Source of the DNA: a virus
IMG/VR virus record: IMGVR_UViG_3300043313_001243
Span: 1 to 47,767 of that record
DNA: 47,767 nt
Strand: one strand, 5' to 3'
A program made the translations under genes and the position numbers. This document shows, in pieces, positions 2,188 to 40,225 of this stretch. Within the stretch, counting starts at the first letter, position 1; every line of letters begins with the position of its first letter. The notes beneath the pieces are model-generated. The model was not told the origin of the DNA, did not search any database, and saw only the letters and a list, made by a program, of their open reading frames with translations.

Positions 2188-2613
2188 GTGGCACCGACCC
2201 CTGAAGTCAATCGCATGCGGTTCGCGCAGTTCGTCGCGCGGACCCTCGCCGGTGCGCGCGACCGCGGCATGACTGACCGGGACATCCACGCCGCGACCGG
2301 GGTCCCGCCGAGCACCTTCCATCGCTGGCAGAAGGGGCAGGTCGCCACCGCGCCCGACCTCGACAAGGTCAAACGCTTCTGCGAAGGGCTCGGCGTCAGC
2401 GTCACGGCCGCCATGACCGCGCTCGGCCTGGCGCCCGGCCGCGACACCACCGAACCGGAGCCGCCGCTCCCGCCGGAGATCCGCACCATCCTGCGCCGGC
2501 TCGCCGACCCCAACGTCCCGGAGTCCGACAAGCTCGTCATCCGGGAGATGCTCAGGATGCTCGCGCAGCAGGCCCGGCGCACCGAGCCGCCGCCACGGGA
2601 GGGGACAGCCTGA
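2188..2613 (+). CDS. Lysogeny repressor candidate with Xre-type HTH (141 aa)
   Basis: GTG 2188 is chosen because TACCGT lies six bases upstream and because the region before it is not protein-like; ATG 2215 is possible. Residues about 10-75 hold a lambda-repressor-type HTH (GMTDRDIHAATGVPPSTFHR then WQKG), recognition helix around PPSTFHRW. The C-terminal part is a Pro linker plus a helix (VPESDKLVIREMLRMLAQQA) that could dimerise. The TGA overlaps the integrase ATG (TGATG), coupling repressor and integrase expression. It is divergent from the early operon across the 1924-1966 operators. Together with int this forms the immunity/integration switch. Confidence 0.75.
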   Translation: MAPTPEVNRMRFAQFVARTLAGARDRGMTDRDIHAATGVPPSTFHRWQKGQVATAPDLDKVKRFCEGLGVSVTAAMTALGLAPGRDTTEPEPPLPPEIRTILRRLADPNVPESDKLVIREMLRMLAQQARRTEPPPREGTA

Positions 2614-3851
2614 TGGCGCGCAAGCGGCAGCCGGTCATCAGCAAGGGCAGCGACGGGCAGTTCCACGCCTGGGTGACCGTCGGCACCAAGACGAACGGCC
2701 GCCCCGACCAGCGTCACGTCAAGCGGGCCACGGAGGCCGAGGTCGAGGAGCGCGTAGACGAGCTGCTCGACCAGGTGCGGGCGGGTGCGGTCGTCAAGGC
2801 GGGCCGCGGGATGACCGTCGAGCAGTGGCTGACGGTCTACCTGGAGACGGTCGCGCCGCGCCGCTGCGACCCGACCACGATCTACGACTACCGGTCCAAG
2901 ATGCGCAACTGGGTGTATCCGGTCGTCGGCGGCGTCCGGGTGGATCGCCTGCGGCCCGACCAGCTCGACGAGGTGTACCTGCGGATGGCGCGCGCGGGCA
3001 AGGCTGACAGCTCGACGTTGAAGGTGCACCGCATCCTCACCCGCGCCCTGGAGATCGCGTTCCGGCGGGGTCTGGTGCCGCGCAACGTCGCGAAGCTCAT
3101 CGACTCGCCCACGGTGAAGCGGGTCGAGATCCTGCCGCTGAGCGAGGCCGAGGCCGTCGCCGTGCTCGACAAGGCGATCGCGTCGCGTCGGCGCAACACG
3201 GCCCGCTGGTCGGTGGGGCTGGCGCTGGGCCTGCGTCAGGGTGAGGCGCTCGGCCTGCGCTGGCCGTACGTCGACCTGGAGCGCGGCGAAATCCGGGTGT
3301 GGTGGCAGCTGCACCGGCGAGCGTTCGAGCACGGCTGCGGCGGCACGTGCGGGCGCCGTCGCGGCGGGAACTGCCCGGCGAAGGTGCTGCCGCTGCGCTC
3401 CGGCGAGCAGGTCGCGACGGGCGGGCTGATCCTCAAAGAGCCGAAGGGTAAGAGCAAGCGGACGATCCCGATCCCGGTCGAGCTCGTCGAGGCGCTGAGG
3501 GTGCACCGGGAGGTGCAGGGGTTCGAGCGGCAGTACGCCGAGTCGGCCTACCTGAAGCACGGGTTCGTGTTCGCTCACCCCGACGGCCGGCCGCTGGACC
3601 CGGGTGACGACTTCGACGACTGGAAGGGTCTGCTCGCCGCGGCGGGTGTGCGTGACGCGCGGGTGCACGACGGGCGGCACACAGCGGCGACGCTTCTGCT
3701 GGCGCAGGGCGTGCGGCTGGAAGTGGTGCAGGAGATCCTCGGCCACTCCGACATCCGGGTGACGCGGGGCTACTCGCACGTGGCGTCGGCGATGGCCCGG
3801 GCGGCGACCGACGGCATGGGCGCGGCGCTGCTGCGCAAGCGGCTACCGTGA
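2613..3851 (+). CDS. int: Tyrosine recombinase, phage integrase
   Basis: 412 aa, ATG coupled to the repressor stop. Order of domains: basic N-terminal arm-binding region (1-65), core-binding SAM-like domain (about 67-165), catalytic domain (about 175-400). Catalytic residues visible: Arg208 (GLRQGEALGL), His352 and Arg355 (HDGRH), His378 (LGHSD) and nucleophile Tyr387 (TRGYSHV); Lys276 or nearby is the likely beta-hairpin lysine. A Cys-rich insert at about 240-256 (HGCGGTCGRRRGGNC) is common in actinobacterial integrases. It would recombine attP at 4600-4650 with a tRNA-Thr(CGT) gene; the arm repeats at 4505-4526 and 4720-4741 are the expected N-domain sites. Confidence 0.95.
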   Translation: MARKRQPVISKGSDGQFHAWVTVGTKTNGRPDQRHVKRATEAEVEERVDELLDQVRAGAVVKAGRGMTVEQWLTVYLETVAPRRCDPTTIYDYRSKMRNWVYPVVGGVRVDRLRPDQLDEVYLRMARAGKADSSTLKVHRILTRALEIAFRRGLVPRNVAKLIDSPTVKRVEILPLSEAEAVAVLDKAIASRRRNTARWSVGLALGLRQGEALGLRWPYVDLERGEIRVWWQLHRRAFEHGCGGTCGRRRGGNCPAKVLPLRSGEQVATGGLILKEPKGKSKRTIPIPVELVEALRVHREVQGFERQYAESAYLKHGFVFAHPDGRPLDPGDDFDDWKGLLAAAGVRDARVHDGRHTAATLLLAQGVRLEVVQEILGHSDIRVTRGYSHVASAMARAATDGMGAALLRKRLP

Positions 3852-7220: not shown

Positions 7221-7496
7221 GCTAGTGCAAGCAAGCGGCGTCGCGTCGCGCTGTCATTCATCCGTCGTCACCGCCTCTCCCTAGCGGTCTCCACCGTCCT
7301 CGCCGGCCTCGCGCTGAACGTGCTGGTGCAGGACGGGGTGAAGCCGTTCCTGATCGTCGTGGCCGCCGGGGTCGGCTACGTGCTGGTGCTCGGCTCGGTC
7401 GGCTGGCTGACCGGCGCGCAGGTCGTGAGGCATTCCCGGCGTGAGGCTGCGGCGATCCAGGCGGGCAAGCACTCTGCGAAGGAGCTGACCCAGTGA
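7212..7496 (+). CDS. Small two-TM membrane protein, first gene of transfer-like operon
   Basis: 94 aa from ATG 7212 inside the operator; TTG 7203 and GTG 7209 are less likely. Basic N-terminus (SKRRRVALSFIRRHR), hydrophobic segments at about 22-38 and 45-68 (FLIVVAAGVGYVLVLGSVGWLTG), basic C-terminus. Its TGA overlaps the GTG of the DUF2637 gene in GTGA. Size and position resemble the small Spd membrane proteins that act with TraB in Streptomyces plasmids, but I cannot show homology. Confidence 0.65.
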   Translation: MTPASASKRRRVALSFIRRHRLSLAVSTVLAGLALNVLVQDGVKPFLIVVAAGVGYVLVLGSVGWLTGAQVVRHSRREAAAIQAGKHSAKELTQ

Positions 7497-8290
7497 CCGA
7501 CCTGCCGAAGCTGCGCCGGATCCGGTGGGCGGCGCGTGGCGTGCTCGTGCTGGGCCTGCTCGCGTCGACCGTCGGCAACGTGCTGCACGCGCAGCCGAAG
7601 TTCGTCAGCCAGGCGATCAGCGCGTGGCCGGTCCTCGCCCTGTATCTGACCATCGAACTGATCGCCCGCGTGCCGATGCACCGCACCGGCCTCGCGGTCG
7701 GGCGGGTCCTCGCTACGGCGGTCATCGCCGGGATCGCGGCGTGGGTCAGCTACTGGCACATGGCGGCGGTCGCGTCGGAGTACGGGGAGACGGCGCCGAG
7801 CCAGTACCTGCTGCCGTTCTCTGTCGACGGGCTGATCGTCATCGCGTCGATCTGTCTTGTTGAGCTGGGCGGCCGGATCGCGGCCGCCGAAACCGAAGGG
7901 GTCACCGATGGGCAAGAGACTGGAGAACCTCGGCCGGAAGGCGAACGCGGCGATCACCGCGATGGAGGCGAAGGAAGTAGCCGCCTACGCGAAGGTGACG
8001 CGGCGGGACGCGGACCGGCGGGAGGCGGAGATCCTGCGCCGGTCGGCGACGGTGCTGCGCCGGAAGTAACGCCCGCCGAGCGGGTCAAGTTGACCCGGCC
8101 GCGGAAGCGCCCGCCGACAGTCGCGGGGAAGGTCGCCCGCGCGCACAAGCAGAACCCGGACGCGTCGCACGCCGAGCTCGCGAGGCGGCTCGACTTGAGC
8201 CCCGCCACGGTGAAGCGGCACCGGCCGAAACCAGAGCAGATCAACGGCAACGTGCCGGCACTCGTCGGCACCAGCGAGGAGGAGAACTGA
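7493..8290 (+). CDS. DUF2637 membrane protein with C-terminal HTH, Spd-like
   Basis: 265 aa, GTG 7493 in a GTGA overlap. N-terminal domain (about 1-130) has four hydrophobic segments (ARGVLVLGLLASTVGNVL, WPVLALYLTIELIAR, VLATAVIAGIAAWVSY, VDGLIVIASICLVELGGR), the pattern of DUF2637 proteins of actinomycete plasmids and integrative conjugative elements. A low-complexity linker (about 131-195) follows, then a C-terminal HTH-like region (HAELARRLDLSPATVKRHRP, about 228-247). In plasmids such proteins accompany TraB in intramycelial spread (family knowledge). The linker codons have unusually low GC at third positions because a second gene runs through them in another frame. Confidence 0.8.
   Translation: MTDLPKLRRIRWAARGVLVLGLLASTVGNVLHAQPKFVSQAISAWPVLALYLTIELIARVPMHRTGLAVGRVLATAVIAGIAAWVSYWHMAAVASEYGETAPSQYLLPFSVDGLIVIASICLVELGGRIAAAETEGVTDGQETGEPRPEGERGDHRDGGEGSSRLREGDAAGRGPAGGGDPAPVGDGAAPEVTPAERVKLTRPRKRPPTVAGKVARAHKQNPDASHAELARRLDLSPATVKRHRPKPEQINGNVPALVGTSEEEN
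7908..8069 (+). CDS. Nested out-of-frame gene: 53-aa charged helical protein
   Basis: ATG 7908 with GAAGGGG ending about 8 nt upstream, TAA 8067, wholly inside the DUF2637 gene in another frame. The protein (MGKRLENLGRKANAAITAME, AKEVAAYAKVTRRDADRREA, EILRRSATVLRRK) is a continuous amphipathic basic helix. In this stretch the nested frame has about 90 percent G or C at third codon positions, while the DUF2637 frame has about half, the reverse of the rest of that gene. This says selection on codon use follows the nested frame. The DUF2637 frame encodes only a Gly/Glu/Arg linker here. Confidence 0.6.
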   Translation: MGKRLENLGRKANAAITAMEAKEVAAYAKVTRRDADRREAEILRRSATVLRRK

Positions 8291-9156: not shown

Positions 9157-11217
9157 ATGGCAGAGATCCAGGCGGGGCCGCCCGAACCCGACGACGCCGG
9201 CCCGCGCCCGGACGACGCCGAGTCGTACGTGCAGGAGCCGACCGTGCACGTCAAGGTGACGTCGCAGCCGGAACCGCCGACGGTGTACGCGACCGTCACG
9301 CAGCTCGCCACGTCCGAGCGGCGGCCGATCATCCCGGCGTGGATGCGGACCTCCGACGCCCGCCGGGTGTTCCTCGCGCAGATGTGGGGCCTGTTCTGGT
9401 ACTCGGTCATGCTGCAAGCCTGGTCAACCCCGGGGTATCTCGCGAAAGCCGCCTACTACGCGCCGTGGGGGTTGCTGAAGTTCACCGGCCGGCAGCTGCG
9501 CTGGATGTGGCATCCGGAACTCACGCAGATGATGCAGCACTCGGCGACCGCGAACGACGTCACCGAGGGCATGAGGGCGGCCGACAAGGTCTCAGCCGCG
9601 CGTAAGGCCCGCGCGTACCTACTGCTCGCCGAGCTGGTCGCCGCGGTCGTCGGGGGGCTGCTGCTCTGGTACATGGCGCCGTGGTGGGTGTTCTGGCTGG
9701 CGGTGGCGGTCGCTGTGCCGGTGTTCGCCCGGATCGGCCGGCCGGAGGAGAAGCCGATCATCCAGCACGTGACGGTCGGAAAGCGGTTCACCCGCCTCAC
9801 GCAGGAGCAGGTCCGTAACGCGCTGGTGGCGCTACGGCTGACCGGGCTCACGAAGCCGGGCGACATCTCGTTTCCGCCGCCGGGTGTACGCGGCGATGGG
9901 CCGGGGTGGCTGGCTCGGTTCGACCTGCCGCCGGGGCTCGTTGCCTCCGACGTGCTCGCCAAGCGCGACCGCCTGTCCGGTGCGCTGCGCCTGCCGCTCG
10001 ATCAGGTGTGGCCGGAGGTCGGGCCCGAGCACCTCGCGCAGGTCGACCTGTGGGTCGGGTTCAAGCCGGCGTCAGCGATGGGCGAACCGAAATGGGACCT
10101 GGCCAAGCCGACCGCGGCGACCAGCATCTTTGAGCCGCACGCGTTCGCCACCGACGCCCGCGGCCGGCCGATCGACATCATCCTGTTCCAGCGCAACATC
10201 CTCATGGGCGGGCAGCCGGGCGCGGGGAAGTCGTTCGGTGCCCGCGCCATCATGACGATCGCCGGGCTGGATCCGACGTGTGAGATGAAGGTCGCCGAGT
10301 TCAAGGGCGTCGGCGACTTCCTCGACCTGGAGCCGCTGTGCACCGACTACGCGTGCGGGGTCGACGACGAGGCATTCGACATCGGCGAAGCCATCATCGA
10401 CTGGGCGCTGGCCGAGTGTGAGCGGCGCGGCGCCCGGATCAAGAAGCTGCGGCAGACCGGGGTATGCCCGGACGGGATGCTCACCCCGGAAATCGTGCGC
10501 AAGGTCCGCGGCCTGCACCCGGTGGTGATCCTGATCGACGAGCTGCACGAGCTGCTACTGAACCGCAAGGGCGTCGCCGAGAAGCTGGAACGGGTGCTGC
10601 GCCGCGGCCGCGCCATGGGCATCATCTTCATTCTGGCCACGCAGATCCCGGACGCGAACACCATCCCGACCGGCATCACGAAGATGGTCTCGATCCGGAT
10701 CTGCATGTCGGTCGCGGACTGGCAGTCGAATGACCAGATCCTTGGCACCGGCGCCTACAAGCGCGGCCACACCGCCACCATGTTCCGGCCCGGCTACGAC
10801 CAGGGGTGGGGCGTCATGCAGGGCCTGCGCCGCGACGGCGAAACCGGCCGCACCTACTTCCCGGACCCGGAAGCCCGGGCGGCGATCGTCGAGCGGATGC
10901 GGGTGCTGCGCGGCGGCAAGGTTGTCGGCGACCAGGGCGAGAAGCTGAAGGCGCGGGACATGTTGGCCGACGCCCGGTCGTGCCTGCGCAACCACGAGGC
11001 CGGCGTGCCGTGGGGCGTCCTCGCCGATCGGCTCGCCGAGTTGGACCCGGAGACGTACGCGGGCATCACCGGGGACATGGTCCGGACGGCGCTCGAGCGG
11101 TACGACATCGTCACCGACGACGTGAAGGTGAAGGTCGACGGGAAGTGGACCAACCTTAAGGGGATGCGCCGCAAGGCCCTCGAGGACGCGATCGCCAAGC
11201 GTGCGATCGAGGGCTGA
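9157..11217 (+). CDS. FtsK/SpoIIIE-type DNA translocase, TraB/TraSA-like
   Basis: 686 aa, ATG 9157 with AAGGAG 9 nt upstream. Layout: acidic Pro-rich N-terminus (1-50), hydrophobic pair (about 150-190, LLLAELVAAVVGGLLLWYMA and WWVFWLAVAVAVPVFA), linker domain (200-340), RecA-like motor with Walker A GQPGAGKS (352-359) and Walker B VVILIDE (456-462), then ILATQ and a C-terminal winged-helix-like domain (about 610-686). This is the plan of the hexameric double-stranded-DNA pumps of Streptomyces-type conjugation (TraB) and of FtsK. In TraB the C-terminal wing recognises 8-bp repeats in clt (family knowledge); a cluster of 9-bp repeats follows this gene. In a phage it could move phage DNA between mycelial compartments, or help resolve recombination near attP. 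Confidence 0.9.
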   Translation: MAEIQAGPPEPDDAGPRPDDAESYVQEPTVHVKVTSQPEPPTVYATVTQLATSERRPIIPAWMRTSDARRVFLAQMWGLFWYSVMLQAWSTPGYLAKAAYYAPWGLLKFTGRQLRWMWHPELTQMMQHSATANDVTEGMRAADKVSAARKARAYLLLAELVAAVVGGLLLWYMAPWWVFWLAVAVAVPVFARIGRPEEKPIIQHVTVGKRFTRLTQEQVRNALVALRLTGLTKPGDISFPPPGVRGDGPGWLARFDLPPGLVASDVLAKRDRLSGALRLPLDQVWPEVGPEHLAQVDLWVGFKPASAMGEPKWDLAKPTAATSIFEPHAFATDARGRPIDIILFQRNILMGGQPGAGKSFGARAIMTIAGLDPTCEMKVAEFKGVGDFLDLEPLCTDYACGVDDEAFDIGEAIIDWALAECERRGARIKKLRQTGVCPDGMLTPEIVRKVRGLHPVVILIDELHELLLNRKGVAEKLERVLRRGRAMGIIFILATQIPDANTIPTGITKMVSIRICMSVADWQSNDQILGTGAYKRGHTATMFRPGYDQGWGVMQGLRRDGETGRTYFPDPEARAAIVERMRVLRGGKVVGDQGEKLKARDMLADARSCLRNHEAGVPWGVLADRLAELDPETYAGITGDMVRTALERYDIVTDDVKVKVDGKWTNLKGMRRKALEDAIAKRAIEG

Positions 11218-25343: not shown

Positions 25344-26240
25344 TCACGGCCTGGCGGTGGTGCCGGCGAACGGGCGGGTGGTGCGGCCTGAGTTCGGCCG
25401 GGCGGTGGTGCCGGTGTACGGCCGGGGGGTGATGCGTGAGCCGGCCGCGGCGGTGACGGCGCCCAGGCCGGCGACGGTGGCGGTGCCGAGGACGACCGTG
25501 CCTGCTGCGGCGGTGACCGAGCCGGAACCGGCGACGGTCGCGCCTGCCTGCGTCCGGGACAGTGCTGCGACGGTGCCGGCTCCGGTGGCGGTGACAGTGC
25601 CCAGCACTGCGCCGGTCGCCGTGACTGCGCCGGCGCCCGTGACGGTGGACCCGGCGCGGACGGTGGCCGTGGCGGTGACCGACCCGGTGCCGGTGACCGT
25701 GGATCCGGCTGCCTGCGTTGCGGTCGCCGAGGTGGCACCGACGCCGGCCACGGTCGCGCCGGCGCGGACGGTGGCCAGGCCGGTGACAGACCCGGCGCCG
25801 GCTACCGAAGCGGTCGCCGTGACGGCGGCCAGCGCGGTGACCGTCCCTACGCCGGTGACCGTGGCCGAACCGGACCCGGTGGCACCAGAGTTCGCGGTGA
25901 CCGACCCGGCGCCGGTGACCGACGATCCGGCCTGCGTCGCCGCGAGCCCGGACGTCGTGCCCGCGCCGGCGACGGCCGCGCCGGCCGACTGCCCAGCCAG
26001 CGCGACGACCGAGCCCGCGCCGGTGACCGTGGCGGTTGCGGTGATCGTGGCTGCGGTGCTGACCGCACCCGTGCCGGTAGGGGTGCTACCAGCCGCCTGG
26101 GCGGCGGTCGCCGATACCGAGCCCGCGCCGGTGACGGTCGCGGTGCCGTTGGTCGTGCTGCCCGCGGTGGCGCCTGAGACGAGGCTGCGGCGGCGGTTGA
26201 CTACCCGGCCGCGGGGGCGGCCGCGGCGCGGCCAGCCCAC
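25344..26240 (-). CDS. Tandem-repeat surface protein, 13 units of about 18 aa
   Basis: 298 aa, GTG 26240. After a basic N-terminus come 13 imperfect repeats of consensus VTGAGSVTATATVRAGST, each 17-20 residues (roughly 54 bp in DNA), almost purely Ala, Gly, Thr, Val, Ser. A short Arg-Pro-rich tail with GTTARP-type repeats closes it. The alternating small/beta-branched pattern suggests a beta-helix or extended fibre. Repeat number could vary by recombination. Located among neck/decoration genes, so a capsid or neck fibre is likely. The opposite strand is also open here, a by-product of the repeats. Confidence 0.7.
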   Translation of the reverse strand: MGWPRRGRPRGRVVNRRRSLVSGATAGSTTNGTATVTGAGSVSATAAQAAGSTPTGTGAVSTAATITATATVTGAGSVVALAGQSAGAAVAGAGTTSGLAATQAGSSVTGAGSVTANSGATGSGSATVTGVGTVTALAAVTATASVAGAGSVTGLATVRAGATVAGVGATSATATQAAGSTVTGTGSVTATATVRAGSTVTGAGAVTATGAVLGTVTATGAGTVAALSRTQAGATVAGSGSVTAAAGTVVLGTATVAGLGAVTAAAGSRITPRPYTGTTARPNSGRTTRPFAGTTARP

Positions 26241-39136: not shown

Positions 39137-39354
39137 GGGTTCCTCCGGGACTTGATCGGGATGACGGGGGCGAGGCGGGCCGGGCGGTCGCGGAACTCGG
39201 CGGCGGGCGAGTTCTCGGGCTCGCGGTCCGGGTCGGCGATGGCTTCGCTACGGCAGAGACGGCAGTTGGTGCCCAGCTCGGACGAGTGGATGCGGCAGCG
39301 CGGGTCGTCGCGGTCGAGGTAGGGGCTGGGCTCGTCGAGCCAGTGGTCGGTCAC
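39133..39354 (-). CDS. Small Cys/His protein (73 aa)
   Basis: ATG 39354 overlaps the initiator stop in ATGA. MTDHWLDEPSPYLDRDDPRC, RIHSSELGTNCRLCRSEAIA; CRIHSxxxxxNCRLC looks like a C-H-C-C zinc knuckle (residues 20-34). The rest is a basic disordered tail. Unknown function. Confidence 0.55.
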   Translation of the reverse strand: MTDHWLDEPSPYLDRDDPRCRIHSSELGTNCRLCRSEAIADPDREPENSPAAEFRDRPARLAPVIPIKSRRNP

Positions 39355-40151
39355 ATCGCCTCCCGCGTGAAGAAATCGACGAGGACGCCGCTCGGTCCGC
39401 GCGTGTGCGGGAGTGAGTTGCGCTGTAGGTCTTGGGCCGGGTGAGGGGTCGCTGAGATTTCCTGTTTCGCTTCGATCCGGGCACCCGACGAAGGAGGGGG
39501 TTCGGGCCGTCGGGGGCCTGGGGGCGGCGCGCCCCCAGTGGGAGGTGATCTTTTACTGAGAGGTGGGGGCTCACTCATGGGTGAGCGCAGATAGCCGCTT
39601 CTGCGCTCACTTCTTTGCGTGAGCGCAGAAGGGTCGTCGTCGAACCCGTCGGAATCCCTAGGATCTGCGCTCACTTCAGGGGTGAGCGCAGATAGGCGGG
39701 CGTCGTCCGTATCGGCATCGCTGGTTTCTGCGCTCACCTTGTCTGAGCGCAGACGGCGACCCTTCTCGCCGACGCGGTTGGTGGCCTTCATGCCGTCGAC
39801 AAGATCCCGGTACTCGCCCTCGTCGAGGACGTTCAGGGCCTTCTCGGTGTCTGGCCCGATGGTCAGCCGGTACTCGTCGGCGCGCTTGGCCTTGCGGTTA
39901 CCGACCCGCACCAGCTCGATCAGGCCGACCTCGCGCAGCCAGGCGAGGTAGCGGCGGGCGGTGCTGTAGCCCATCTCGCAGTCGACGGCCAGGCGGGCGA
40001 TGCCGCACTTGACGCTCGTGCCGTCGGTGGCCGCGTACGACGCGATGACCAGCGCGGCGGACTTCTTCCTGGCGTCGCCGATGCGGGCACGGCGCACCAG
40101 GCGGTACCACGTGCCGAGTGGCACGCCATAGTCCTCGCTATCGGTGCCCAT
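39351..40151 (-). CDS. Winged-helix replication initiator candidate (266 aa)
   Basis: ATG 40151. Residues about 25-105 (ARKKSAALVIASYAATDGTS, VKCGIARLAVDCEMGYSTAR, RYLAWLREVGLIELVRVGNR) form a winged helix of the type found in phage O-like and plasmid initiators. Residues about 140-260 are disordered and Pro/Ser-rich (SEPPPLSKRSPPTGGAPPPG). The DNA encoding the disordered part contains seven copies of an 11-bp repeat in alternating orientation, as iterons or origins do (compare lambda ori inside O). Start is coupled to a leader peptide and preceded by a hairpin. A transcriptional regulator is the alternative. Confidence 0.6.
   Translation of the reverse strand: MGTDSEDYGVPLGTWYRLVRRARIGDARKKSAALVIASYAATDGTSVKCGIARLAVDCEMGYSTARRYLAWLREVGLIELVRVGNRKAKRADEYRLTIGPDTEKALNVLDEGEYRDLVDGMKATNRVGEKGRRLRSDKVSAETSDADTDDARLSALTPEVSADPRDSDGFDDDPSALTQRSERRSGYLRSPMSEPPPLSKRSPPTGGAPPPGPRRPEPPPSSGARIEAKQEISATPHPAQDLQRNSLPHTRGPSGVLVDFFTREAM
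39569..39753. repeat. Iteron-like array inside the initiator gene, candidate replication origin
   Basis: GTGAGCGCAGA at 39581-39591, 39619-39629, 39682-39692 and (one mismatch) 39743-39753; the inverse TCTGCGCTCAC at 39600-39610, 39664-39674 and 39727-39737. Orientation strictly alternates. Spacings are 19, 19, 45, 18, 45, 16, so like copies recur at 63 bp, six helical turns. An extra half-site GGCTCAC precedes at 39569-39575. The array lies in the part of the gene encoding a disordered linker, which tolerates such DNA constraint. Confidence 0.75.
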
Positions 40152-40225
40152 CAACCACCCGCCAGGGTGGCGAGAAGACGCACCGCGTTGCGGGCATGCG
40201 ACAGAGGGGTAGGCCGTGGCAGCAT
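40151..40225 (-). CDS. Leader peptide coupled to the initiator gene (24 aa)
   Basis: ATG 40225 has an ideal Shine-Dalgarno GGAAGGAGG (40243-40235) with 9-nt spacing. It encodes MLPRPTPLSHARNAVRLLAT then LAGG and its TGA overlaps the initiator ATG (TGATG). The leader frame runs through the hairpin at 40155-40170. The initiator itself has only a weak site, so its translation probably depends on the leader. Confidence 0.5.
   Translation of the reverse strand: MLPRPTPLSHARNAVRLLATLAGG
40155..40170 (-). promoter_or_regulatory. Hairpin immediately before the initiator start codon
   Basis: CCACCC (40155-40160), GCCA, GGGTGG (40165-40170): a 6-bp stem whose base is four nucleotides from the ATG at 40151. 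It would occlude ribosome entry at the initiator unless opened by ribosomes translating the leader peptide. Confidence 0.5.

Follow-up and report, generated by a model that had tools for sequence, protein, structure and literature searches.

Origins of replication that lie inside the gene of their own initiator are textbook knowledge from phage lambda, and iteron origins in general work through repeats bound by the initiator next to an AT-rich tract. To our knowledge, few replication origins of actinobacterial phages have been mapped. In Stx phages, according to one report, extra iterons lengthen O in frame by 13 aa (PMC7466680). For the RepA-dependent extrachromosomal prophages of mycobacteria (Miko, Rachaly and others), another report describes an initiator with a helix-turn-helix, and its authors suggest that repA may itself contain the origin, as gene O does in lambda (PMC7157519). 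The same report gives no repeated motifs in the region examined near the repA genes, and describes phages of this type as being maintained as plasmids with parABS (PMC7157519).

The window analysed here, i.e. the whole stretch of 47,767 nucleotides, is a virus sequence with a GC content of about 70%. It encodes a tyrosine integrase and terminase, portal, major head and tape-measure proteins, an inventory typical of temperate tailed phages, and its host group is probably the actinobacteria. The tyrosine integrase gene is located at 2613-3851 (PF00589, E 1.8e-22). On the integrase side, the plus strand also encodes a DUF2637 membrane/HTH protein (7493-8290) and an FtsK/SpoIIIE-like ATPase (9157-11217), a pairing reminiscent of actinobacterial conjugative elements. 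An earlier note on this DNA had described seven alternating 11-bp iterons within an initiator gene as a candidate origin. The gene and its product are laid out as follows.

39351-40151, minus strand: initiator gene, 266 aa from the ATG at 40151 (267 aa from an alternative TTG at 40154)
Product of this gene: winged-helix domain at about residues 10-100, then a Pro-rich part with the array, then a short conserved tail, VDFFTREAM

Profiles matched by the whole protein are phrog_391 ("replication initiation O-like", E 3.5e-5) and phrog_26991 (no function assigned, E 3.4e-7). Both matches are located in the first hundred or so residues, and the homology of the initiator to O-like replication proteins is thus one of the domain only. 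The same profiles are matched by 10 and 11, respectively, of 11 domain sequences from the family of relatives described below. An AlphaFold model of residues 1-132, weak at a pLDDT of 63, features helices followed by two strands, as in a winged helix. A Foldseek search with the model gave no match below E 0.001, and the best structural matches in VIA-align were generic winged helices (top Z 8.3), among them MarR/CRP-like regulator folds and one plasmid centromere protein, with no initiator standing out.

Six perfect copies of GTGAGCGCAGA and one copy with a single mismatch are found between 39581 and 39753, in strictly alternating orientation, as had been described. Together with a degenerate eighth half-site they form four palindromes, which read TCTGCGCTCAC-N5 to N8-GTGAGCGCAGA on the coding strand. 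In gene order, the half-sites are:

39743-39753, plus strand: half-site 1, one mismatch
39727-39737, minus strand: half-site 2, exact; palindrome partner of half-site 1 across a 5-nt spacer
39682-39692, plus strand: half-site 3, exact
39664-39674, minus strand: half-site 4, exact; palindrome partner of half-site 3 across a 7-nt spacer
39619-39629, plus strand: half-site 5, exact
39600-39610, minus strand: half-site 6, exact; palindrome partner of half-site 5 across an 8-nt spacer
39581-39591, plus strand: half-site 7, exact
39564-39574, minus strand: half-site 8, degenerate (GTGAGCCCCCA, three mismatches); pairs with half-site 7 as the terminal palindrome, and is identical in the relative L007

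The start-to-start steps of the seven sites are 19, 19, 45, 18, 45 and 16 bp, in agreement with the alternation of 16-19 and 45 bp noted earlier. Copies of the same orientation follow each other at 38, 63 and 61 bp on the plus strand and at 64 and 63 bp on the minus strand, so that the proposed recurrence every 63 bp holds for four of the five steps (61-64 bp) and fails for the first (38 bp). Two TCTGCGCTCAC-N4..10-GTGAGCGCAGA palindromes occur in the window, compared to none in 100 dinucleotide shuffles of it, and the 7 sites with at most one mismatch in the gene compare to a mean of 0.37 and a maximum of 3 in 2000 synonymous recodings. The iterons occupy all three reading frames and encode SALT, VSAE/VSAD, SERR or LRSP, and no peptide repeat can therefore account for them. 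When two mismatches are allowed, the motif is not enriched across the window (17 found, 28 expected), and a generic repeat count also reaches 7 in a gene for a repeat-rich protein at about 25.5-25.9 kb; the case is therefore carried entirely by the exact cluster, the reading frames and the conservation. The latter gene (25344-26240, minus strand) encodes a protein rich in VTGAGSV-like repeats. In a DNA scan of viral contigs, no match to the exact 7-nt-spaced palindrome was found, and the array region had no DNA match in the phage collection.

Conservation at the level of DNA beyond that imposed by the protein, which the earlier note had suggested looking for in relatives, was evident from comparison with L007, another virus contig whose initiator is 72% identical to that of the window. 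Its array equals that of the window minus one 63-bp unit, a difference visible between the aligned proteins as a 19-residue gap in frame. Fourfold degenerate sites are identical at 14/14 positions within the iterons and at 12/12 in the next 52 nt, at 2/8 between the iterons, at 9/17 in the remaining C-terminal part, and at 40/53 in the winged-helix part. Pooled, iterons and adjoining 52 nt are identical at 26/26 such sites, against 11/25 for the sequence between iterons and the rest of the C-terminal part (Fisher test, 3e-6). The iterons and the adjoining stretch are thus constrained as DNA within the initiator coding sequence, presumably as binding sites. Elsewhere in the C-terminal part, silent changes have accumulated in the manner of coding DNA. 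In L007, a perfect orphan iteron (2980-2990) also overlies the GTG start codon of the initiator gene.

Relatives of the initiator were found in prophages of M. abscessus, 10.9-kb Mycolicibacterium phages, a Micromonospora "plasmid", further virus contigs, and Nocardia genomes. Domain-alignment searches of genomes yielded relatives in 32/401 and 6/394 (E 1e-10). A scan of genome contigs with the winged-helix core returned 71 stretches with no relative among them, a second such scan with a query from the Micromonospora clade gave 3 Nocardia loci, and no relatives came from a viral scan that used the JSGardenL2 protein as query. Repeat counts are based on 49 loci, in which M. abscessus-type loci are represented by L014, L023, L035, L037, L039, L040 and L042, with near copies of this type (L024, L025, L028-L034, L036, L038, L041) left out. 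L047-L049 are repeats of L043-L045; L050 and L051, both weak matches, and five further matches without a locus were also left out. Nine loci with fewer than 4 copies (L022, L060, L066, L067, L070, L076, L079, L082, L083) were dropped to give the 40 loci used for DnaA boxes and G content, and removal of near-identical proteins (L023, L035, L037, L042, L052) gave the 35 loci used for Mantel tests, coding status, upstream sites, the tree and the downstream box.

Several of these loci have gene contents of their own. The Micromonospora "plasmid" (L046, CP108834.1) is linear, 58.7 kb in length, and carries terminase, minor head, gp10-like and integrase genes; it is probably a phage genome or a prophage assembled apart. 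The 10.9-kb phages of Mycolicibacterium aichiense (L021, OR387117.1) have serine integrase, scaffold and capsid genes and a family initiator with CTSACGGGACAT repeats. In the M. abscessus prophages L014 and L023-L025, the neighbourhood of the initiator includes genes for a DNA polymerase sliding clamp and for a second HTH protein.

At 34 of the 49 loci, the best 10-mer repeat within 350 nt behind the domain exceeds every control window of the same locus. The 15 loci that do not beat all their controls include remote ones without a visible array. This count replaced an 8-mer score that proved too noisy in GC-rich DNA, and it is a weak detector of lambda-type iterons, giving 3 copies for lambda, where each of 12 control windows already gave 2. 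A search for relatives that keep the protein and lose the repeats found that, at domain scores of at least 80 bits, 20/27 loci beat every control and the other seven hold 3-5 copies; arrays are weak or missing mainly in remote relatives (below 60 bits). Copies inside one locus share one sequence, and this sequence varies by lineage (TCTGGGGATCAC, TCTGGGTCTCAC, CGACCGGACAC, CTCACGGGACAT and others), while its location just behind the domain is constant. Same-orientation spacings in the family peak at 22, 33 and 45 bp, near whole helix turns, and half-sites without a partner, as well as direct repeats at 22-bp steps, also occur in relatives. The alternating geometry had been called distinct: paired inverted half-sites are in fact common in the family, and what is special to the window and L007 is the period of 61-64 bp without single half-sites in 22-bp steps. 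Across the 35 non-redundant loci, those with more dissimilar recognition helices also have more dissimilar iterons (Mantel r 0.51), and part of this association persists when the remainder of the domain is controlled for (partial r 0.26, p 0.0004). Correlations of similar strength are seen for other segments of the domain (Mantel r 0.43-0.56), so that ancestry explains much of this pattern and contact between protein and DNA is indicated by the partial value only.

Beyond the array, three further elements are embedded in the window gene:

39538-39569, minus strand: G-poor, locally AT-rich strand (CCCCCACCTCTCAGTAAAAGATCACC...), adjoining the terminal palindrome; candidate unwinding element
39518-39538: perfect GC-rich hairpin CTGGGGGCG-CGC-CGCCCCCAG (= CTGGGGGCGCGCCGCCCCCAG), next to the G-poor tract and unchanged in L007
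39413-39422, minus strand: CGCAACTCAC box, encoding RNS; counterpart of a box that is conserved in relatives, where it is noncoding and lies downstream of the array

On the coding strand, the last palindrome is followed immediately by CCCCCACC and then by the G-poor stretch, which contains TAAAAGATC. The 40 nt next to the array have an AT fraction of 0.47, a value reached by 0.4% of locus windows and modest compared to the tract of lambda. Between 39000 and 39800, the GC skew of the plus strand drops from roughly +0.25 to almost zero as the array is crossed. In 37/40 loci, the G content of the coding strand right after the array is in the lowest 5% of the locus, a rank which takes the best of 60 start positions and is not a p-value. 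The G-poor strand after the last palindrome is rich in ACCA or CACC in most loci, e.g. CCCCCACCATATTTACCAACCC (L027) and ACACCACCAACCCATACCAACCAAG (L044). The CGCAACTCAC box is present in exact form, and in the same order, within the coding sequence of both the window and L007. With at most one mismatch it is found at +232 to +309 nt behind the domain in 13/16 loci with noncoding arrays, and over all 35 loci it occurs 16 times in 15,750 nt behind the domain versus 12 times in 133,395 nt elsewhere.

The DnaA-box consensus TTRTCCACA occurs 27 times in the 17,778 nt lying within 450 nt behind the domain at the 40 array loci, and not once in the remaining 154,858 nt, a count inflated by near copies; 12 of the 35 non-redundant loci have at least one box. 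The window has none, and in this it departs from DnaA-assisted iteron origins. In 16 of the 35 loci, the initiator is barely longer than the winged-helix domain, and the stop codon is reached before the array is complete, often within its first palindrome, so that the array is noncoding. DnaA boxes are present at 11 of these 16 loci versus 1 of the 19 with in-frame arrays (Fisher p 1.6e-4), a link that comes down to few independent changes, with 2 to 4 independent pairs and significance out of reach.

Our preferred reading, which as a whole explains these observations best and which we regard as very likely, is that the array is the replication origin of the phage, bound by the winged-helix protein of the gene that surrounds it. 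Dimers of this protein would bind the four palindromes (eight half-sites) and wrap the DNA, and the resulting nucleoprotein complex would open the adjoining G-poor, AT-rich strand. A helicase would then be loaded at the opened strand, leading to theta replication after induction or infection. In relatives with DnaA boxes, the helicase may be brought in by DnaA; in the window, it may be brought in by the C-terminal part of the initiator itself or by an unrecognised phage protein. Known types of helicase loader include lambda P, DnaC and DnaD; none of lambda P or DnaC/DnaD type was recognised among the scanned genes downstream of the initiator gene. The lambda-like candidate origin inside an initiator gene is well supported by the family comparison, i.e. 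by array position, DnaA boxes, the O-like domain and DNA-level constraint. The earlier note had further taken it to imply plasmid-like replication. This does not follow, since such an origin serves the lytic replication of any theta-replicating phage, and since the phage, quite unlike a plasmid-like prophage with partition genes and no integrase, has an integrase, and a scan of 24 window proteins (a subset of its genes) against a library of protein families recognised no ParA.

Four other explanations were considered. The palindromes could be an operator cluster through which the protein, as a transcription regulator, represses or times its own operon, as its resemblance to MarR/CRP regulators and the extra perfect copy over the start codon in L007 would have it. 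We consider this unlikely: the sites are located well within the gene or behind it, away from the promoter, the array is accompanied by an AT-rich, G-poor tract and, in relatives, by DnaA boxes, the domain matches O-like replication families, and a site upstream of the gene was found in L007 only, with none in the other 34 of the 35 loci, the window included. The array might also be a partition site, a centromere of the parS kind with the winged-helix protein as its binding partner, given that repeat arrays beside a gene for a DNA-binding protein typify centromeres too and that one such plasmid protein is among the structural matches; the integrase, the lack of ParA among the scanned proteins, and DnaA boxes in relatives, which fit an origin rather than a centromere, make a partition site very improbable. 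Slighter still is the chance of RNA hairpins in the mRNA that would act in attenuation, processing or translation control. The strand does fold far better than shuffles (z -7.7), as any inverted repeat would, but relatives have unpaired half-sites, direct repeats in 22-bp steps and, in many cases, an array outside the gene, and copies share one sequence per locus that differs between loci. That the repeats stem from a repetitive linker peptide or from chance can practically be dismissed, since the equal crude count in the repeat-rich gene elsewhere in the window is outweighed by the use of three frames and several peptides and by recodings that yield at most 3 copies versus 7.

If the array is an origin, as we favour, its position in the relatives, just behind the gene, suggests that the gene of the window grew across it. 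In the tree of the 35 loci, the window and L007 fall within a group of 20 rows with mostly noncoding arrays (support 93/96, unstarred), and their nearest neighbour, L055, has a noncoding array without DnaA boxes (fork support 89/70, unstarred). As far as sequences can tell, an extension of the frame over a formerly noncoding origin is probably the simplest account; with unstarred branches and few independent changes as its basis, the comparison suggests a direction from noncoding to embedded arrays. The ancestor would have had a short gene with the origin just behind it and DnaA boxes, and in the lineage of the window the frame would have been extended over iterons, unwinding tract and conserved downstream box, the DnaA boxes being gone. 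It is tempting to speculate, although we give it rather less than an even chance, that a short initiator with a noncoding, DnaA-assisted origin became a long one whose C-terminal half overprints iterons, unwinding tract and box, and recruits the helicase in place of the lost DnaA boxes.

The window thus very likely contains a lambda-O-type iteron origin, in a little-known actinobacterial family, that has probably been overrun by its own reading frame. Judged by the open-licence literature searched, the actinobacterial family, the geometry of paired half-sites, the terminal palindrome with its G-poor tract, and the downstream box are new, as is the observation that DnaA boxes go with noncoding arrays and not with embedded ones. 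The family offers a rule for locating such origins, namely to search just behind the winged-helix domain, and a collection of naturally varied iterons, each with its presumed binding protein, useful for the study of joint change in initiator and origin. It also supplies small segments that are candidates for replicons in actinobacterial genetics, and it allows origins that have DnaA boxes to be compared with natural counterparts that lack them. The window itself is a case of a gene that appears to have grown across its own origin.

Among the systems compared are the gp16-like proteins of M. abscessus prophages in phrog_26991, a family with no function assigned (domain match E 6e-8). These also have repeats inside the gene, in 33-bp steps, and end in GTGTCCTCCCACC; their identity to the window protein, about 39%, extends over some 85 residues only, and the C-terminal parts are unlike. 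Phages of the Miko/Rachaly type, likened here by description only, share with the window phage an actinobacterial host (a probable one for the window), a temperate lifestyle and a helix-turn-helix initiator, and differ from it in that no repeats are reported for them and in their maintenance as plasmids with parABS. Iteron plasmids and other DnaA-assisted origins combine iterons, DnaA boxes and an AT-rich tract, as do the relatives with short initiators, whereas in the window the iterons are coding and stand without a DnaA box. The likeness to lambda ori in gene O, and to those of the Stx phages P27 and 933W, is one of architecture: iterons and an AT-rich tract lie in the middle of the initiator gene, the tract occupies the same place relative to the iterons, and the initiator O is a dimer. 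Moreover, the lengthening of O by extra iterons in Stx phages resembles the in-frame 63-bp unit of the window. No partner like that of lambda gene P was recognised downstream of the window initiator. The repeats themselves are organised differently, with four directly repeated 18-bp iterons in 20-24-bp steps in lambda (from the features of its record), and 11-bp half-sites paired head to head across 5-8-bp spacers and recurring mostly every 61-64 bp in the window.
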